35,805 bases of DNA, from the IMG/VR virus record IMGVR_UViG_3300033146_003904, positions 1 to 35,805 of that record; one strand, given 5' to 3'. Within the stretch, counting starts at the first letter, position 1. Each line of letters opens with the position of its first letter. Below, in pieces: positions 6,752 to 29,100 of this stretch. The stretch comes from a virus. The notes beneath the pieces are model-generated. The model was given only the letters and a program-made list of their open reading frames with translations. It was not told the DNA's origin and ran no database searches. The translations under genes were made by a program, and so were the position numbers.

Positions 6752-7231
6752 ATGAAAAAGTTAGAAAATTTTACAGTTTCGGTTAATTTACATGGTTGGC
6801 AAACAAAAGTAGATGGAAAGCTGAAAGTTTATCCTCGTGCGTTTAAAGCCAAAGGGATTCAGATCAATGAGGCTATGGTTGAATGTCTTGTGGAAGGATA
6901 TCAATTTAGCGGCAGTAGCGGTAAGAAATTGCCTGTATTAAGCCTTGTTGGTGGAACTCAACAGGAATTGCAAGAAGCATTTAACACTCTTACAAAAAAA
7001 GAACGTGTCGAAAAGATTCGTGAATTGGCTCGTAAGGAAGTGATGGAAACACTTGGCGAAGATGAAAAGAAGTTGGTTCTTAAGGGAATGAAAGAGCAAG
7101 CTGAAGAGCAAGCTGAAGAGCAAGCTGAAGAGCAAGCTGAAGAGCAAGCTGAAGAGCAAGCTGAAGAGCAAGCTGAAGAGCAAGCTGAAGAGCAAGCTGA
7201 AGAGCAGTTGAAAAAAGAATCTGGTGAATAG
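6752..7231 (+). CDS. Hypothetical protein with EQAE tandem repeat tail
   Basis: 159 residues, starting at ATG 6752 with AAGGAG upstream. I do not recognise the family. Residues 1-66 look like a small beta-rich domain (FTVSVNLHGWQTKVDG). Residues about 70-110 are helical and charged, and residues 115-150 are nine perfect EQAE tetrapeptides followed by EQLKKESGE. The tail should form an acidic helix or coiled coil. By position, just after the capsid gene, it could be a head-completion or packaging factor, as lambda FI is, but this is only a positional guess. Confidence 0.75.
   Translation: MKKLENFTVSVNLHGWQTKVDGKLKVYPRAFKAKGIQINEAMVECLVEGYQFSGSSGKKLPVLSLVGGTQQELQEAFNTLTKKERVEKIRELARKEVMETLGEDEKKLVLKGMKEQAEEQAEEQAEEQAEEQAEEQAEEQAEEQAEEQAEEQLKKESGE
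7094..7201 (+). repeat. Nine perfect 12-bp tandem repeats (GAGCAAGCTGAA)
   Basis: The unit GAGCAAGCTGAA occurs nine times without a single mismatch from 7094 to 7201, then continues as a partial GAGCAG. Each unit encodes EQAE in frame. Exact identity at all codon positions indicates recent expansion, probably by replication slippage, so copy number is expected to vary between relatives. Confidence 0.97.
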
Positions 7232-19905: not shown

Positions 19906-19997
19906 GGGAAGGCTCATCTAATGTCCTTCCGGGGTATGGGAAGGCTCATCTAATGTCCTTCCGGGGTATGGGAAGGCTCATCTAATGTCCTTCCGGG
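19906..19997 (+). repeat. Three direct 32-nt repeats, each a hairpin
   Basis: Copies start at 19906, 19938 and 19970 with no mismatch. The third stops after 28 bases. Each begins GGGAAGGCTCATC and ends TCCTTCCGGGGTAT. There are no spacers of varying sequence between copies, so this is a tandem repeat and not a CRISPR array. Confidence 0.97.
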
Positions 19998-20078: not shown

Positions 20079-20837
20079 ATGGCTTTTGGAGTAGGTACAC
20101 CAGCAGACGACTGGACACAAGAAATATCGGGGGTTTCAGAGAATAAAGTACAACATTCTTCTCTAACATCCCCGATATTAACAAATCACGGTTCTTATTG
20201 TAGACGCTTCAATGCACCTTCTGCTAATGACTTGAAGACATTCTACAAGCTGATAGACCCAGCTTATGTTACTGAGAATTCTAAGTCAATTAGAGGTTTT
20301 TTCAGAACCGAAGACACAAGAGGAGGCACAAACGTTGATTTTAGATTCGTCAATCAACCAAGATTGATTTTGAATGCTGACGACAATGCTGGCTCTTTGG
20401 ACTTAGACACTGGGTATCAAGCGTATATTGGTGGGGCATATACTCATATTGACTTGTATCTAACAATGGGCTTATCTAATTCACCAGTTGCCACAGTTAG
20501 ATTGTCTACTGCGGCTGATGACTTTGGTCAAAAGTGGAACGGTCTGAGACTCGATGTCATCAAAGAAGATCAAGATGCTCACATTCTCGTATACATGGCA
20601 CAAGGTGCATCAGTTTGCGACAATCTTACAAATGGTGAGCCTGTTTGGACAAAGATGTTAGACGTCATACATGTTAATGGTACGACTACACCGACAATTC
20701 TTCTCGGAGATACAGCTTACTCTTTTCCGACAACCGTTCCCGTACTATCAGGTTACTCAGCGTTTGGTTTTCACAATCCAGAAACGTTATCATATTACGT
20801 AACATTTGTCGATTCCGTTTCAATTAAAAAGATGTAA
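20079..20837 (+). CDS. Hypothetical structural protein, fibre or lectin-like
   Basis: 252 residues, starting at ATG 20079 with AGGAGA upstream. It looks like one beta-sandwich domain: FYKLIDPAYVTENSKSIRGFF, GLRLDVIKEDQDAHILVYM and a final LSYYVTFVDSVSIKKM suggest a jelly roll of the carbohydrate-binding or concanavalin kind, though no family is certain. Its codons differ from the AT-rich neighbours and include more GAC and ACA. It comes directly after the triple hairpin and its terminator, so it must have its own promoter or rely on readthrough. Confidence 0.62.
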   Translation: MAFGVGTPADDWTQEISGVSENKVQHSSLTSPILTNHGSYCRRFNAPSANDLKTFYKLIDPAYVTENSKSIRGFFRTEDTRGGTNVDFRFVNQPRLILNADDNAGSLDLDTGYQAYIGGAYTHIDLYLTMGLSNSPVATVRLSTAADDFGQKWNGLRLDVIKEDQDAHILVYMAQGASVCDNLTNGEPVWTKMLDVIHVNGTTTPTILLGDTAYSFPTTVPVLSGYSAFGFHNPETLSYYVTFVDSVSIKKM

Positions 20838-22542: not shown

Positions 22543-22561
22543 AGTCTGAAGGAGAATGAAA

Positions 22562-24526
22562 ATGAGCGTATGTAGTTTTAGACATGCTATTGGTGCACGT
22601 GGCGAATTGTCTTACGGTGATGAAAATTGCTGGGGACGTGCTGTTGAACCAACCAATCGAATCGCTTTTAAAACTGAAGGTTTCAAAAATGAAATTGGCG
22701 ACCTTCGTTCTGAAGCCCTTGACCCGAATCGTGCTTTGACGAAGCGTGTTAACGGCGTTTCCAATGTAAGTGGTGAGTTTGCTTTTGAACAGAACACAAC
22801 TGGTTATGAATTTATCGCACGACATGCTCTGGGCGATTATGTCAGTGTTGCTTCTGCTGATGGCGCTATTGGTAGTCGCGTAACGACTGAATATGCTGCT
22901 TCTGCAAATGATATGGTTGTGGCTGATAATAGCGTTTTTGTCGCTGGTACTGGTTCTGGTGCTGGCAATCATTATTTCTTGGCTGCTATCTACAAAGATT
23001 CAAGCGGCAAGCTTCAAGCCGAGATCTCAACAGCTCAATACGCTTTGAACGCTGATGGTGTCACTGTTAATGGTGCTTCATCATTGTTTACAGTAAAGGT
23101 CCCCCTTGGCGCTTATATTGTCCAGACAAATTCTGACTGGAACAATGTCTACACGCATTATATCGAAGCGGCCCGCGATCTTCCTGAAGGTCTTACCTTT
23201 GAAGTCGGCCGTGATGTGGCTTATTTTGTTTACACTGGCATGAAGGTTAATACTCTTGAGTATACTTTCAACGCTCAGGAAATTTGTCAAGGCACTGCAA
23301 GTCTTGTTGGTAAGGGCGAATATAGCGGTGGTCTTCTGGCCACTGTCACCACTGAAGCTTCAACTTCTGTTGTTATCGACAACTTTGGTATGGATCTTTA
23401 TGTCGCTGGTCAACAAATGAGCGCTTCAGTACAAGACGATGGTGGCACACCTCACGACTATACCACTGAATCTAATGATAACGTTACTGGTGATGTAGAA
23501 TTATTCACCGTCAATGCTCAATTGGATGACGCTTTTTATTTTGGCATGACAAGTAAATTTAGTGCTATTGACATCACCAATCTGGTTCCTCAAGCGAATG
23601 CTCCCGCTAGCTTGAACTGGGAATATTACAACGGCGCAACTTGGGAATCTCTCAATGTCACTCAAGATGATATTGGTGATAATCTTGCTGGTACTGTTGC
23701 TGGTGATCGTCTTACTACGTGGGACATCCCTAGTGATATGAGCGTTTTCACTTTTAATGCGCAAGGTCCGTTTTATTATGTCCGTGCCGTTGTTCCTGCC
23801 AATGCTGCGAACATTATCGCTATTGTTGCTGATCGCGTTTGGGCTGGCCCATCTGCTATTGGTTTCCCTCGCGAAGGCGGAGACTTGCAAGTTGGTTCAG
23901 AAAATGGCGTAGCTTTTAGCTCTTACACCATTGATTATGACACTGCGTTAGCAACTCTCATTGTGGATGTCGCTGAATGGAACCAAGGTTCAACTCACGC
24001 TCTTGAAGAACCTGTTGTTAGTCAACAGACTTGGGGCCACGATGTGACTCCTTCGTCCGATAGCGATCCGCTTTCAAGTTTCCAAGCAGCCGCTTATATG
24101 GATAGTGTATATCAGGAAATTTTGAGTGCTACTGTTACGTTGAACAACAACTTGAATACTGATAAATTCCAGATTGGTGCTCGCTTCCGCGCTGGTATCC
24201 CTGAAGGTATGCGCTCCGTTGAATGTTCTCTCAATGCAGAATTTGATGATCTCATTCTTTATCGTAAGTATATCGATCACAATAGTTTTGAGCTTGAAAT
24301 TCGCGCCGTCCAGGATTCAGGGGCCATTAACACTACAATCCCTGCTGATCCGGTATACGCTTCGAAAACATTATTTATGCCAAAGGTTGAACTCACTGGT
24401 ACGACCCCCAATATTGGTGGACCTGATCAAATTTTGATTGACCACCCTGGTGTTTGTATGCGTGATACGACACGAGATATCAACGAGCTGGTTGTTATCT
24501 TTGTTAATGAGAATTCTAGCATTTGA
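22562..24526 (+). CDS. Major tail tube protein, unusually large
   Basis: 654 residues. ATG 22562 has AAGGAG seven bases upstream; the ATG at 22556 is only one base from that site. The opening IGARGELSYGDENCWGRAVEPTNRIAFKTEG and the LRSEALDPNRALTKRVNGVSNVSGEFAFE segment match tail tube proteins of the Phage_tube_2 kind. Its second half resumes at about 518 (EILSATVTLNN ... GIPEGMRSVECSLNAEF). An extra module at about 325-430 (LNWEYYNGATWESL, FYYVRAVVP) appears inserted in the tube fold and resembles a module of fibre B. Codons are of the highly expressed class. The TGA stop is followed by 96 further open codons in the same frame. Confidence 0.82.
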   Translation: MSVCSFRHAIGARGELSYGDENCWGRAVEPTNRIAFKTEGFKNEIGDLRSEALDPNRALTKRVNGVSNVSGEFAFEQNTTGYEFIARHALGDYVSVASADGAIGSRVTTEYAASANDMVVADNSVFVAGTGSGAGNHYFLAAIYKDSSGKLQAEISTAQYALNADGVTVNGASSLFTVKVPLGAYIVQTNSDWNNVYTHYIEAARDLPEGLTFEVGRDVAYFVYTGMKVNTLEYTFNAQEICQGTASLVGKGEYSGGLLATVTTEASTSVVIDNFGMDLYVAGQQMSASVQDDGGTPHDYTTESNDNVTGDVELFTVNAQLDDAFYFGMTSKFSAIDITNLVPQANAPASLNWEYYNGATWESLNVTQDDIGDNLAGTVAGDRLTTWDIPSDMSVFTFNAQGPFYYVRAVVPANAANIIAIVADRVWAGPSAIGFPREGGDLQVGSENGVAFSSYTIDYDTALATLIVDVAEWNQGSTHALEEPVVSQQTWGHDVTPSSDSDPLSSFQAAAYMDSVYQEILSATVTLNNNLNTDKFQIGARFRAGIPEGMRSVECSLNAEFDDLILYRKYIDHNSFELEIRAVQDSGAINTTIPADPVYASKTLFMPKVELTGTTPNIGGPDQILIDHPGVCMRDTTRDINELVVIFVNENSSI

Positions 24527-24817
24527 CTGGGAGACGCAGTTGTTACGCCGCCTACTCCGTGGGTTCCTCGTGCTGGATACGCTCTGTTTGACGACGATAC
24601 GGTGGACGTAGAAACCTTTGAAAATTGGTCAGGCGTTATTGTTCCTTGGGTCGAATCTAGTTCTACACCAGCTTCTTTTGATGGAGACGCTGTAGACAAA
24701 GACCCCTTTGAAAATTGGTCAGGCGTTATTGTTCCTTGGGTCGAATCTAGTTCTACACCAGCTTCTTTTGATGGATCGACCGAGAACAAGGAAACTTTTG
24801 AGAACTGGCCAGCGTAA
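22562..24817 (+). CDS. Tail tube protein readthrough form (TGA 24524 decoded)
   Basis: If the TGA at 24524-24526 is read through, the product has 751 residues. The added part starts LGDAVVTPPTPWVPRAGY, a Pro-rich hinge. It continues with two identical 30-residue repeats and a third shorter one, each opening with FENW. No ATG and no Shine-Dalgarno site exist between the TGA and the repeats; the only start is a bare GTG at 24602. Codon use continues unchanged. The stop is followed by C, and UGAC is the weakest bacterial stop context. A hairpin terminator follows the real TAA at 24815. A minor, longer tail subunit decorating the tube is inferred. Confidence 0.62.
24524..24529 (+). promoter_or_regulatory. 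Leaky TGA-C stop, candidate readthrough site
   Basis: The context is AGC ATT TGA CTG GGA. UGAC is known as a poor termination signal, also found in the self-regulating prfB frameshift site of E. coli. Confidence 0.55.
24615..24775 (+). repeat. Two identical 71-nt repeats encoding FENW units
   Basis: Bases 24615-24685 and 24705-24775 are identical over 71 nt, at a 90-nt (30-codon) period. A third, degenerate start (TTTTGAGAACTGG) lies at about 24796. Both repeats are in the same frame as the tail tube gene and encode FENWSGVIVPWVESSSTPAS followed by FDG. Confidence 0.95.
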
Positions 24818-24844
24818 CAAAGATGGCGTTGAAGACAAACGGAA

Positions 24845-24878
24845 GAAACGGGCATCTGAGAAATTAGATGCCCGTTTC
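24845..24878 (+). terminator. Perfect hairpin after tail tube gene
   Basis: 13-bp perfect stem GAAACGGGCATCT (24845-24857) with AGATGCCCGTTTC (24866-24878) and an 8-nt loop. The T-run after it is poor (GCTATTATA), so it may work as a partial terminator or as a 3' end protector of the abundant tail transcript. Confidence 0.75.
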
Positions 24879-24887
24879 GCTATTATA

Positions 24888-24896
24888 TGCTAAAAT
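24888..24896 (+). promoter_or_regulatory. Extended -10 promoter candidate
   Basis: TGCTAAAAT matches TGn-TATAAT with one mismatch. It is 25 bases before the chaperone GTG start and just after the hairpin, a sensible place to restart transcription. No good -35. Confidence 0.4.
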
Positions 24897-24920
24897 TATT
24901 TTTTTAATTAGGAGAAATGT

Positions 24921-25553
24921 GTGAATTTTTTTACAAAAATGTTATCTTTTTTAACAATTATATTTTATATGCCAATGGTAATACTAGCAAAGGCACAACT
25001 GTTTTTTTCTAAAACTCTCTTAAATTATTCAGTTAAAAAATATGGTCACATTTCTGGAATGAGCGGTAAATTTGGCTTGCAATTAAAAAACAAAGCTAAT
25101 ATAATTGCGCACGAGGTGTTCATGGAGAGCGCCGCATTTATAACACAGGAACGAGAGGACGTGATCATGAAAGCTATTGACGCCAATAAGGCATATCCGT
25201 ACATCCCTAAAGAAGATAGAAAATCCACAGTCAAGCCGGAAGATAAAACCACTTTTTTGTGCAAGTACGTTAATCCGTATTTGGACGCAAAGCTTGGTGA
25301 TGAACTTTTTAGCATTCAAGGGGTTGGCAATCAGCGCAAAGAACGCCTTTTGACTGGTACACAGCGCCTTGAGATTCTTAAGGAGTGCGTTACAGGCTGG
25401 GAAAACTTTGTTGGCCCTGACGGTAAGCCTGTTACCTTTGACCCCAAGAACATTGAAGCCATGATTTCGATGATCCCGCCTCCAGTTCGTTCAGAACTTG
25501 CCGATTTTATTCGCGGTGAAAGCGACCTCGAAGAGGGGGAAACGAACGGCTAA
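24921..25553 (+). CDS. Tail assembly chaperone, upstream part (G-like), with membrane-like extension
   Basis: 210 residues from GTG 24921, which has AGGAG six bases upstream. Residues 1-32 are strongly hydrophobic (FLTIIFYMPMVILAKAQLFF). The chaperone-like part begins near residue 83: MKAIDANKAYPYIPKED, then CVTGWENFVGPDGKPVTFDP and MISMIPPPVRSELADFI, typical of tail assembly chaperones that bind the tape measure. Two further in-frame ATGs, 25122 and 25167, also have Shine-Dalgarno-like sites (GAGG), and codon style turns GC-richer at about 25110. The core chaperone is therefore likely to start at 25122 or 25167 (128 residues). The product ends just after a G-run used for a -1 frameshift. Confidence 0.75.
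   Translation: MNFFTKMLSFLTIIFYMPMVILAKAQLFFSKTLLNYSVKKYGHISGMSGKFGLQLKNKANIIAHEVFMESAAFITQEREDVIMKAIDANKAYPYIPKEDRKSTVKPEDKTTFLCKYVNPYLDAKLGDELFSIQGVGNQRKERLLTGTQRLEILKECVTGWENFVGPDGKPVTFDPKNIEAMISMIPPPVRSELADFIRGESDLEEGETNG
25167..25553 (+). CDS. Core tail assembly chaperone from internal ATG
   Basis: Alternative start ATG 25167, with GAGAGGA upstream, gives 128 residues lacking the hydrophobic extension. This is closer to the usual size of such chaperones and contains all of the recognisable domain. It is listed separately so that both options can be judged. Confidence 0.55.
   Translation: MKAIDANKAYPYIPKEDRKSTVKPEDKTTFLCKYVNPYLDAKLGDELFSIQGVGNQRKERLLTGTQRLEILKECVTGWENFVGPDGKPVTFDPKNIEAMISMIPPPVRSELADFIRGESDLEEGETNG
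25535..25541 (+). promoter_or_regulatory. -1 frameshift slippery site (G-run)
   Basis: Zero-frame codons are GAG GGG GAA ACG. The Gly-tRNA on GGG can re-pair perfectly one base back. The -1 frame has a stop at 25517-25519, so the shift must occur after it and before the zero-frame TAA at 25551. The G-run is the only plausible site. The second codon (GAA to GGA) re-pairs poorly, so it is not a canonical heptamer. Confidence 0.65.
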
Positions 25554-25585
25554 GAAGCCTAGTTCGTTTCCGTCACTTCTTAGCC
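25538..25585 (+). promoter_or_regulatory. Two alternative hairpins at frameshift site
   Basis: Hairpin 1: 25538-25551 pairs with 25556-25571, as a 10-bp stem GGAAACGAAC/GTTCGTTTCC, a 2-nt bulge, then GGCT/AGCC and an AAGA loop. Hairpin 2: 25548-25557 GGCTAAGAAG pairs with 25576-25585 CTTCTTAGCC, a perfect 10 bp. They share bases, so they exclude each other. A ribosome on the G-run would melt hairpin 1 and leave hairpin 2 six bases ahead, the usual distance for a stimulator. Confidence 0.7.
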
Positions 25586-26113
25586 AGTGCTAAAGACCCA
25601 GAACACATCCAAAGATTATGGTCCTGCGAAAATTGTAGGAAAAGCGAAACCTTACCTTTTGAGCGCAATTGTCCTTTTTTAACAAAAGAGGAAAAGATTC
25701 GTTGGGCCTACACTTCTGGAACGCGGACTTCTTCTTCTAAATATCAATTAAAATCAAAAAAACGTTCTATTAAAGAATTAAAAGATGAGTTAAAAGATGG
25801 GGAAGCAAAGGAAAGAGCCATTGTTTCTATAGGTAAATTTCAGTTTTTAGAATGTCCAGTAAAAATGTTTAATGAAGAACATGGTTTGCTAAAGCTAATA
25901 GATATGATAAATTGGTCTGAGAACATGAAGACACCACTTGTTGATGGAGGACTCTTAAATTATACCGCTTACTTTTTTAAATGCTATCAGATAGTTATTG
26001 GCGAACAAAGTAGAATAGATTCAGAAGAAAGAGAATTGTCAAAAGGAAGTAGCAGCGGTAATAGCGAGTCCCAGCCAAGTAAGTCCACAATGGGTGGCGC
26101 AACACGAAGATAA
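25538..26113 (+). CDS. Frameshifted chaperone extension (T-like)
   Basis: This -1 frame is open from 25520 to the TAA at 26111. It is expressed by fusion with the upstream chaperone through the G-run, adding about 191 residues. It has no start codon of its own near the beginning. The segment RFRHFLASAKDPEHIQRLWS followed by CENCRK and NCP gives a four-Cys pattern typical of a small zinc-binding region. The end is Ser-rich (SKGSSSGNSESQPSKS). A G/GT chaperone pair with a -1 shift directly before the tape measure is conserved across long-tailed phages. Confidence 0.82.
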   Translation, partial: GNERLRSLVRFRHFLASAKDPEHIQRLWSCENCRKSETLPFERNCPFLTKEEKIRWAYTSGTRTSSSKYQLKSKKRSIKELKDELKDGEAKERAIVSIGKFQFLECPVKMFNEEHGLLKLIDMINWSENMKTPLVDGGLLNYTAYFFKCYQIVIGEQSRIDSEERELSKGSSSGNSESQPSKSTMGGATRR

Positions 26114-26124
26114 AAGAGGACAAG

Positions 26125-29100
26125 ATGGCCAACAAACGTCAGATTACTTTTAAAATTAATATCATCAAATCTGATGAGAAGGCAGTTAAGGCCGCAGTTC
26201 AAGACTTTAAAAGGATTGAAGATGCAGCTAAACTTTCTGCTAGTGTTGCACACAGCGCATTCAATACTGGCAAAGGATATGAGGAATTTATTTCTGTATT
26301 GGGGAAAGTTTCTTCTGAAATGAATTCTGTAAAAGAAGCTATTTCTGCTATTAATGGCGCTCAACAACTTACCGCTTCCGGTTTACAAAAAACAATAAAT
26401 ATTTTAAATTCAATGTCAGAAAAAGCAGACAAGAACAAAGTTGAATTAAAAGGTCTTTCTAATGAATTACAGCAAGTAGCAAACTCTACGAGCGCAGAGG
26501 CTAAAGCTGTTGAACAAAGTTCCCAGGCATTAGCGTCCAATGAACAATCCGTCAAAAAGAGCAATCAAGCCGTTAAGGAACAAACTGCTGTTAATCGTGA
26601 GGCAAAGGACGCAATTGACGCTAAAAATAAAGCTGAAGCCGCTGGTGGAAAGAAGACTTATACATTAAACAAAGAAAAGGCATTTGTCGCACAAAAAGAA
26701 GTTTCTCCTGCTCAAGCGTCGCCAGCCATCAAAGCAGCTAATGATGCACAAAAAGAACTTATAAAAAGTCAAGAGCTTTCCAAATCTATTGAAGAGGGAA
26801 CTTTAAAACTTTCTAATGAAATAGCAAAAGCGAATAAAGCTCAAGCTACTTCAGTAAAAGCTGTTGCTAAAGAAAGTGCTGAATTAAAAAGCGCAAGAAA
26901 AAAAGAATTAGCTGTTCAACAGGAACTTGCGAAAGTTGAAGAAGAAATAACGCTTATTGTTTCCAAACAAAGGGCACAGAACGAAGCCCCTAAAAAAATA
27001 TTAGAATTAGAAAAAGAACGAAAAGAAGCCGCTAAAAAAACAGCTTTATCCTATACTGAACTTGAGGAACTTACCTCGAAAGAAGGAAAAGTCTTAAAAG
27101 GCATAGAGGATACAAAGAAAAAACTTCAGGCCATCGACGCTATGAGTAGCACTTCAATAGAAAAGAAAAACTCTTTAGAGAGTGAAGCAAAAAAAATTCA
27201 AGAAACTATTTTTGGTTCTAATAAAAAAAACAATATAATTATTGATTCTGAATATAGAAAAAAAGTTAAAATTTTAGGCACAATGAAAAACGAAGCGATT
27301 GCGCTTCGAGAAGAAATCGCCGACCTTGAAGCTGTTCGAAGATTTACAATAGAAAATCTTGAAGCAAGAGAAAAAAATCTTAAAAAATTAAGAGATGAAC
27401 TGAATTTAACAAAAGATATTAATAAAAAAATCAAAGAGCAAATGGAATTCGCAAGCGGTAAAAAAAGCGATAGTGTTACAGAAGAACTTAAAATTGCTTT
27501 AGAAAAATATGACAAAATAGCGCTTCGTTTAAAGAAAACAAAAGCAATAATCCAAGAGTCAAACGCTTCAACTGAAAAAGCTATTTCTCTTGCCAAAGAA
27601 CGCGCTTCTGTTGAAAAAACAATTGTTGATTTGATTAAAAGAGAGATGCGTCCGGCCAAAGAAACTTCTAGTATGAAGGTGAGTAACGGAGATTTGACGA
27701 AAGCCGCTCAAGAAACTGAAAAATATAATAATATTTTGAAAGCTGAAAGAGAAGCTATTTCTCTTGCCAAAGAACGCGCTTCTGTTGAAAAAACAATTGT
27801 TGATTTGATTAAAAGAGAAATGCGTCCGGCCAAAGAAACTTCCAGTATGAAGGTGAGTGGAGGGGAGTTAACAAGGGCTATTCAAGAAACTGAAAAATAT
27901 AATATTCTTTTGAAAAACAGAAAACGACTTACGAGAGAAGTCACTGAAATTTTAAATGCTCCAATTAGAAAAAGTAGACTTGAAGAAGATCTTACAAAAG
28001 AGTTAGCGCTTCGAAAAAAAGTGTTGGTTAAAGAAAAAGAACAAGGAGATATTAAAAAAAATATTTCTTCTTTTTCTGAAGTGCTTGCTGCGAGAATTAA
28101 TAATGCAGATCGTAAAAATTTAGAGTCTTTAAAAAGCATAATTGATGAAAGAAAAAAAATAGTCGCTTCTATGGCCGCCGAAAGAGAAGCTGCAAGTTTA
28201 AGTGAAAGTCAAATTACTGTTACAAAAGGTCAAATTGGTTCGCTCAAGAACCTCGACAATGCTTATAAGCTTGTCACGCGAGATGCTATAGAAGCAGCTA
28301 AGGCTGGAACAGCTTTAAGAAATTCACCAGCTTATATTAAGAAGGCTTCAGCGGAAGGTGAGTCCCCTTCTAACCCAGAAGATGACAAACTGGCTAAAGC
28401 ATTAATTGGGCAGATTAGAAGCATAAGCATAGGACTCGCTAAAGCTAAAGGAGAATTTCGTAGTTTTCAAACTGAAATGAGTGCTGCAAGTGACCCTAAA
28501 GCTATTTCTAAAATTTCAGAAAAGATAAATGTTTTATCAACAAAAATCGGAACAGCAAAAGCAAAATCAGAAGGACTCCAGAAACAACTTTCTAAAGTTC
28601 CAGTAACAGGAAAAGAAATTGGAGCGGATTACGATAGAGTGCTGACCATCCAAGAAAATCTTTTCAACAGCACTTTAAAATTAAGTTCTGGGTTGAGAAA
28701 TGCGGCCACTTCTGGAAAAGTATTATTCGAAGCTTATACTCAGTTAAGTTCAAGTCAAAAAGCTTTTGACAAATCTTCTGATAGTATTGGTTCTAGTATT
28801 GAAAAACAATCGGCTTCAGTTAAAGGTTTGGCTGCTGAACTTGTTACACTAGACGCACAAATAAATAAAACAGCAAGTTACAAAACACCTAAATTAGGAG
28901 CTGATGTAAAGAGAATCGACTCTACTGCTGCTCAAGAAAAAGCTGCGCAATTAGACGCTAAACGTGTTGAACTTATACAAAAACAAAATGGTTTATATGA
29001 TATTAAAGAAACTAAATTAGATGTTGAGAAACAAAAATTAGATATTCTTCAGAAAATAGAAGTTAACAGAAATCGCACATCTATAGAACGCTTACGTTTA

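Follow-up and report, generated by a model that had tools for sequence, protein, structure and literature searches.

An in-frame UGA can separate a virion protein from an extension that only a minority of subunits carry. The RNA phage Q-beta, with its essential A1 readthrough extension, is a known example. In tail-tube proteins, minor C-terminally extended forms are made by programmed frameshift, as in SPP1 (gp17.1 and gp17.1*) and in the Listeria phages PSA, A118 and A500, and the SPP1 extension is an FN3 domain (PMC8718954, PMC7666168, PMC5009743). A limited literature search turned up no tail-tube gene with UGA readthrough.

Here we analysed a stretch of 35,805 bases from an IMG/VR virus record (the window), which encodes a terminase, a capsid protein and a tail module. 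An earlier note had claimed that the stop codon of its major tail protein gene is read through, which would add a domain of FENW repeats to some of the subunits. We confirm the gene and the code-like frame behind its stop. With about even confidence, we explain the 96 codons past the TGA as a coding relic in the 3' UTR, intact here and decaying in a sister phage.

Results

A complete tail-tube gene ends at an ordinary TGA

The locus contains the following features, all in the direction of the tail-tube gene:

22556-24526, plus strand: major tail-tube protein, 656 aa, complete; matches PF18906 and phrog_290, its C-terminus coincides with that of distant tail-tube proteins, ends in TGA
24524-24526, plus strand: the stop codon TGA in TGAC context; TAA in the sister phage
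24527-24601, plus strand: Pro-rich stretch LGDAVVTPPTPWVPRAGYALFDDDT past the stop; coding signal weak at first, site of the sister's 1-nt deletion
24587-24817, plus strand: FENW repeats, 90-bp unit in 2.3 copies with three FENW motifs; codon use gene-like, closed by TAA
24602-24604, plus strand: GTG, the only usual in-frame start, without ribosome site; TCG in the sister phage
24845-24878, plus strand: terminator-like hairpin of 15 pairs with a weak U tract
24921-25553, plus strand: next gene, tail assembly chaperone (phrog_313, 8.7e-5), with a -1-frame continuation to 26113

The upstream gene, which had been called a major tail protein, is a tail-tube gene. Its product matches PF18906 (Phage_tube_2) with an E-value of 1.6e-25 and 90.7 bits against a curated cut-off of 27, which places it in the family, and phrog_290 with an E-value of 2.1e-28. 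When distant tail-tube proteins (from Guernseyvirinae and a Vibrio phage) were aligned with it, their ends fell within about 5 residues of the TGA, and in the four distant tube genes inspected we saw no long open frame past the stop. Judged by this shared end point, the 656-aa protein is complete and the FENW extension is an add-on to it.

TGA is an ordinary stop in the window and terminates six other predicted genes; a reassigned genetic code, with TGA as a sense codon throughout, was rejected on this ground. Selenocysteine was rejected since there is no structure 3' of the TGA and the sister phage has TAA. An assembly error at the TGA is unlikely because an independent lineage has a stop at the identical position, and the stop can be taken as real, as the earlier note had assumed. 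A single frameshift into the FENW frame is impossible, since the repeats already lie in frame 0. An extension of the SPP1/PSA type was rejected for the same reason, and the gene end has no CCC_TGA of the Listeria-phage type (PMC5009743).

The Caulobacter phage RBC11 (record L139, 342-2172) seemed to read across its stop and was discarded as a parallel. Its annotated tail-tube gene has an apparent frameshift within the gene, and the homologous C-terminus continues in another frame.

The repeat part codes, or recently coded, for protein

Between the TGA and TAA 24815-24817, 96 sense codons are open in the frame of the tube gene. The Pro-rich hinge leads into the FENW repeats as had been described, and the 90-bp tandem repeat spans 24610-24812 in 2.3 copies. 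The FENW motifs lie at 24617, 24707 and 24797. The third repeat copy is diverged and retains ETFENW through synonymous codons (ACC/ACT, GAA/GAG, AAT/AAC).

Under a first-order Markov model, the probability of at least 96 open codons is 0.0066, and it rises to 0.035 when the repeat is counted once. The window has about 26 gene ends, so the open frame alone is weak evidence. The codon score of frame 0 over the whole stretch is 0.20 bits/codon, compared with 0.262 +/- 0.096 for true genes and an out-of-frame 95th percentile of -0.26. The unit at 24602-24700 scores 0.45, which none of 5000 shuffles equalled, and the signal drops at the second stop. This gene-like codon use, together with the fall-off at the second stop, means that the repeats code for protein, or did so until recently. 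The frame count and the codon scores thus agree with the earlier note, which had also described codon use as unchanged across the TGA. That holds for the stretch as a whole and fails just behind the stop, where the scores of the first 15 and the first 25 codons lie under the 5th percentile for equally long gene windows, with frame 0 still the best. The coding signal is strong only from about 24566 onward; it is weak at the end of the tube gene itself, too.

Database searches gave the extension no family. Pfam, PHROGs and NCBIfam searches returned nothing significant, and tblastn against phage records gave no match. FENW repeats were also sought elsewhere: viral contigs were searched with the 97-aa extension and with two DNA patterns, genome contigs with one pattern, and only unrelated proteins were found. 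A search with the pattern FE.GW returned one phage protein with a similar C-terminal repeat. Structure prediction from two sequences reached a mean pLDDT of 27.9.

No start codon with a ribosome site was found in the stretch, in line with the earlier note; besides GTG 24602, it has a second in-frame start, CTG 24527. A short ORF in the +1 frame (24507-24610), whose ATG overlaps the end of the tube gene, is similar in the sister phage (MRILAFDWETQLL and MRVLVFNWEIQLL, respectively), and no ribosome site was seen for it. An antisense ORF (24427-24855) overlaps the tube gene and has a codon score of -0.03, far below that of genes; it was rejected as a shadow of the plus frame.

The terminator-like hairpin reported after the second stop is present, and the region 24818-24895 has a folding energy of -30.2 kcal/mol (z -6.2). 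We found no stimulatory RNA structure 3' of the TGA (z +1.75); such structures are common in readthrough and not obligatory. An Rfam search of 24300-25000 gave sub-threshold matches only.

The tail assembly chaperone gene that follows (24921-25553) is overlapped by an open stretch of 197 codons in the -1 frame (25520-26113), with the G-rich GAGGGGGAAACG in the overlap. By analogy, the arrangement at 24921-26113 would correspond to the G/GT frameshift of siphophages.

Other tandem duplications are present in the genome, including one between genes. The gap before the gene at 20079 holds, at 19906-19997, a hairpin-like repeat of 32 bp (GGGAAGGCTCATCTAATGTCCTTCCGGGGTAT) in 2.9 exact copies, with a terminator-like hairpin behind it. 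A 174-bp tandem duplication (27578-27915, 90% matches) lies inside a tape-measure-like ORF of great length, still open after more than 3,200 codons where the window ends. At 7092-7206 a 12-bp tandem repeat encodes EQAE units at a protein C-terminus, and the sister phage has 30 extra bases there.

The sister phage has TAA and a broken frame

IMG/VR 3300017593_000611 is the sole viral contig in the collection with a close tube protein, and other searches for close relatives gave only this contig. The tube proteins of the two phages are 79-80% identical. Across most of the sequence that they share, the sister phage's genome is 91-94% identical to the window; the genes of the sister phage are open. 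Within the tube protein, both ends are well conserved, and the middle (23431-23830) differs sharply between the two phages, with in-frame indels of 9, 12 and 3 nt. This middle part is probably an exchanged or fast-evolving domain, judging by the alignment.

The sister phage carries TAA at the position of TGA 24524-24526. The frame behind it is interrupted by an in-frame TAG and by two 1-nt indels, a deletion at window position 24551 and an insertion at 24622. The contig breaks off within the repeat, 118 nt beyond the stop, so that errors at its end are possible. Over the 117 aligned bases, the first, second and third codon positions have 9, 6 and 8 substitutions of 39 each (23/15/21%). The corresponding values are 3.6/2.2/15.8% for the remaining shared genes taken together and 7.5/7.5/20.9% for the final 67 codons of the tube gene. 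How improbable it is that at most 8 of the 23 substitutions fall at position 3 depends on the yardstick: against the proportion for all genes P is 1e-4, against that for the last third of the tube gene 0.01, and against that for the whole tube gene 0.08, which is not significant. Indels in the fast-evolving part of the tube gene are all multiples of three. The frame breaks, the even change over codon positions and the in-frame-only indels of the tube gene suggest that the stretch past the stop behaves like unconstrained sequence between the two phages.

Past the stop, each block of the sister's sequence still has a frame in which similarity at the protein level can be recognised (VPRSGYALFDDNTSDVE; YWSGVIV). 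When changes were polarised by the other repeat copies of the window, the window's own changes were synonymous and those of the relative mostly altered amino acids, including loss of FENW; the polarised sites are few and the insertion was placed by hand. This pattern suggests decay in the sister, with constraint perhaps still acting in the lineage of the window.

The gene identity, the code-like frame and the real stop of the earlier interpretation are therefore upheld, and programmed UGA readthrough is not. The comparison with relatives that had been proposed, looking for a TGA, a sense codon or a frameshift at this spot, gave TAA in the single close relative, so that the leaky stop is not kept there. 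Its downstream frame is neither open nor biased by codon position (possible contig-end errors apply to this frame), and the stimulatory structure is missing.

Discussion

The 96 codons past the TGA are probably best explained as a relic. The tube protein is complete at the TGA, and the FENW codons would belong to the 3' UTR of its transcript, upstream of the terminator. The relic may have been a C-terminal tail of the tube protein or a small repeat ORF. Both lineages have a stop at the same site; this common stop, TGA or TAA, would cut the relic off and was probably already present in their ancestor. Any product of the relic would be due to ribosomes that pass the UGAC at a low basal rate, in a gene that is highly expressed. 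The composition is code-like, and the sister's frame is broken with neutral-type divergence; from this we infer loss of function and the order of events. Codon use that is still gene-like and drops at the second stop is to be expected if the loss was recent. Our confidence stays near the halfway mark, given a single relative, possible contig-end errors and a codon-position test that depends on the yardstick.

Functional UGA readthrough would give a few percent of the tube subunits a FENW tail in this lineage, the sister having lost it. UGAC is regarded as a weak stop in bacteria, and this context speaks for readthrough, as do codon use that is gene-like in this frame as far as the second stop, the likeness of the diverged repeat copies at the codon level and the mostly amino-acid changes on the sister's side. 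Minor extended tail-tube subunits made by frameshift in SPP1, PSA, A118 and A500 provide a precedent (PMC8718954, PMC5009743). However, the sister has TAA, frame breaks and neutral-type divergence, no RNA structure lies downstream of the TGA, and no other instance of a FENW tail was found in the viral contig collection. We consider readthrough unlikely, and keep it in view for this lineage alone because the polarisable changes are mostly on the sister's branch.

The FENW part could also be a small ORF of its own, with translation starting at GTG 24602 (71 aa) or by reinitiation behind the tube gene. This would agree with the in-frame GTG and with a coding signal that is weak just past the stop and strong only from about 24566, but no ribosome site precedes 24602, the GTG is TCG in the sister and the frame is broken there, which makes a separate ORF quite improbable. 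We place least belief in a non-coding origin, in which a frame that was open by chance grew longer as a unit with a length divisible by three was duplicated in tandem. The open-frame probability with the repeat counted once, the roughly 26 gene ends, the tandem duplications elsewhere in the genome, also between genes, and the neutral-type divergence from the sister all fit it; the codon score of the unit, unmatched in the shuffles, and the synonymous differences between the diverged repeat copies do not.

If the stretch is a relic, an accessory tail module is being lost between close relatives, and the locus cautions against calling readthrough solely because the frame past a stop is open and has good codon use. 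If readthrough were true, it would be a third route, besides direct fusion and frameshift, to decorate a minority of tail-tube subunits.

Compared with described proteins, the tube protein shares about 21-29% identity and the same C-terminus with those of Guernseyvirinae and related PF18906 members; in the four inspected, no long open frame follows the stop. A phage baseplate/tail-region protein (L129, 5890-6831) carries C-terminal FETGW repeats with similar acidic-aromatic FE..W motifs; it is, however, another protein, its repeats are in frame without a stop, and the likeness is one of motif only. As in the coat/A1 arrangement of Q-beta, a UGA stands between a structural gene and an in-frame extension, but here the sister has TAA and the extension is not conserved. 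The locus resembles SPP1, PSA, A118 and A500 in that a tail-tube gene is followed by a piece able to add a C-terminal domain to a minority of subunits. Theirs is added by frameshift, whereas here the piece lies in frame behind a stop, consists of short FENW repeats and is broken in the sister phage.
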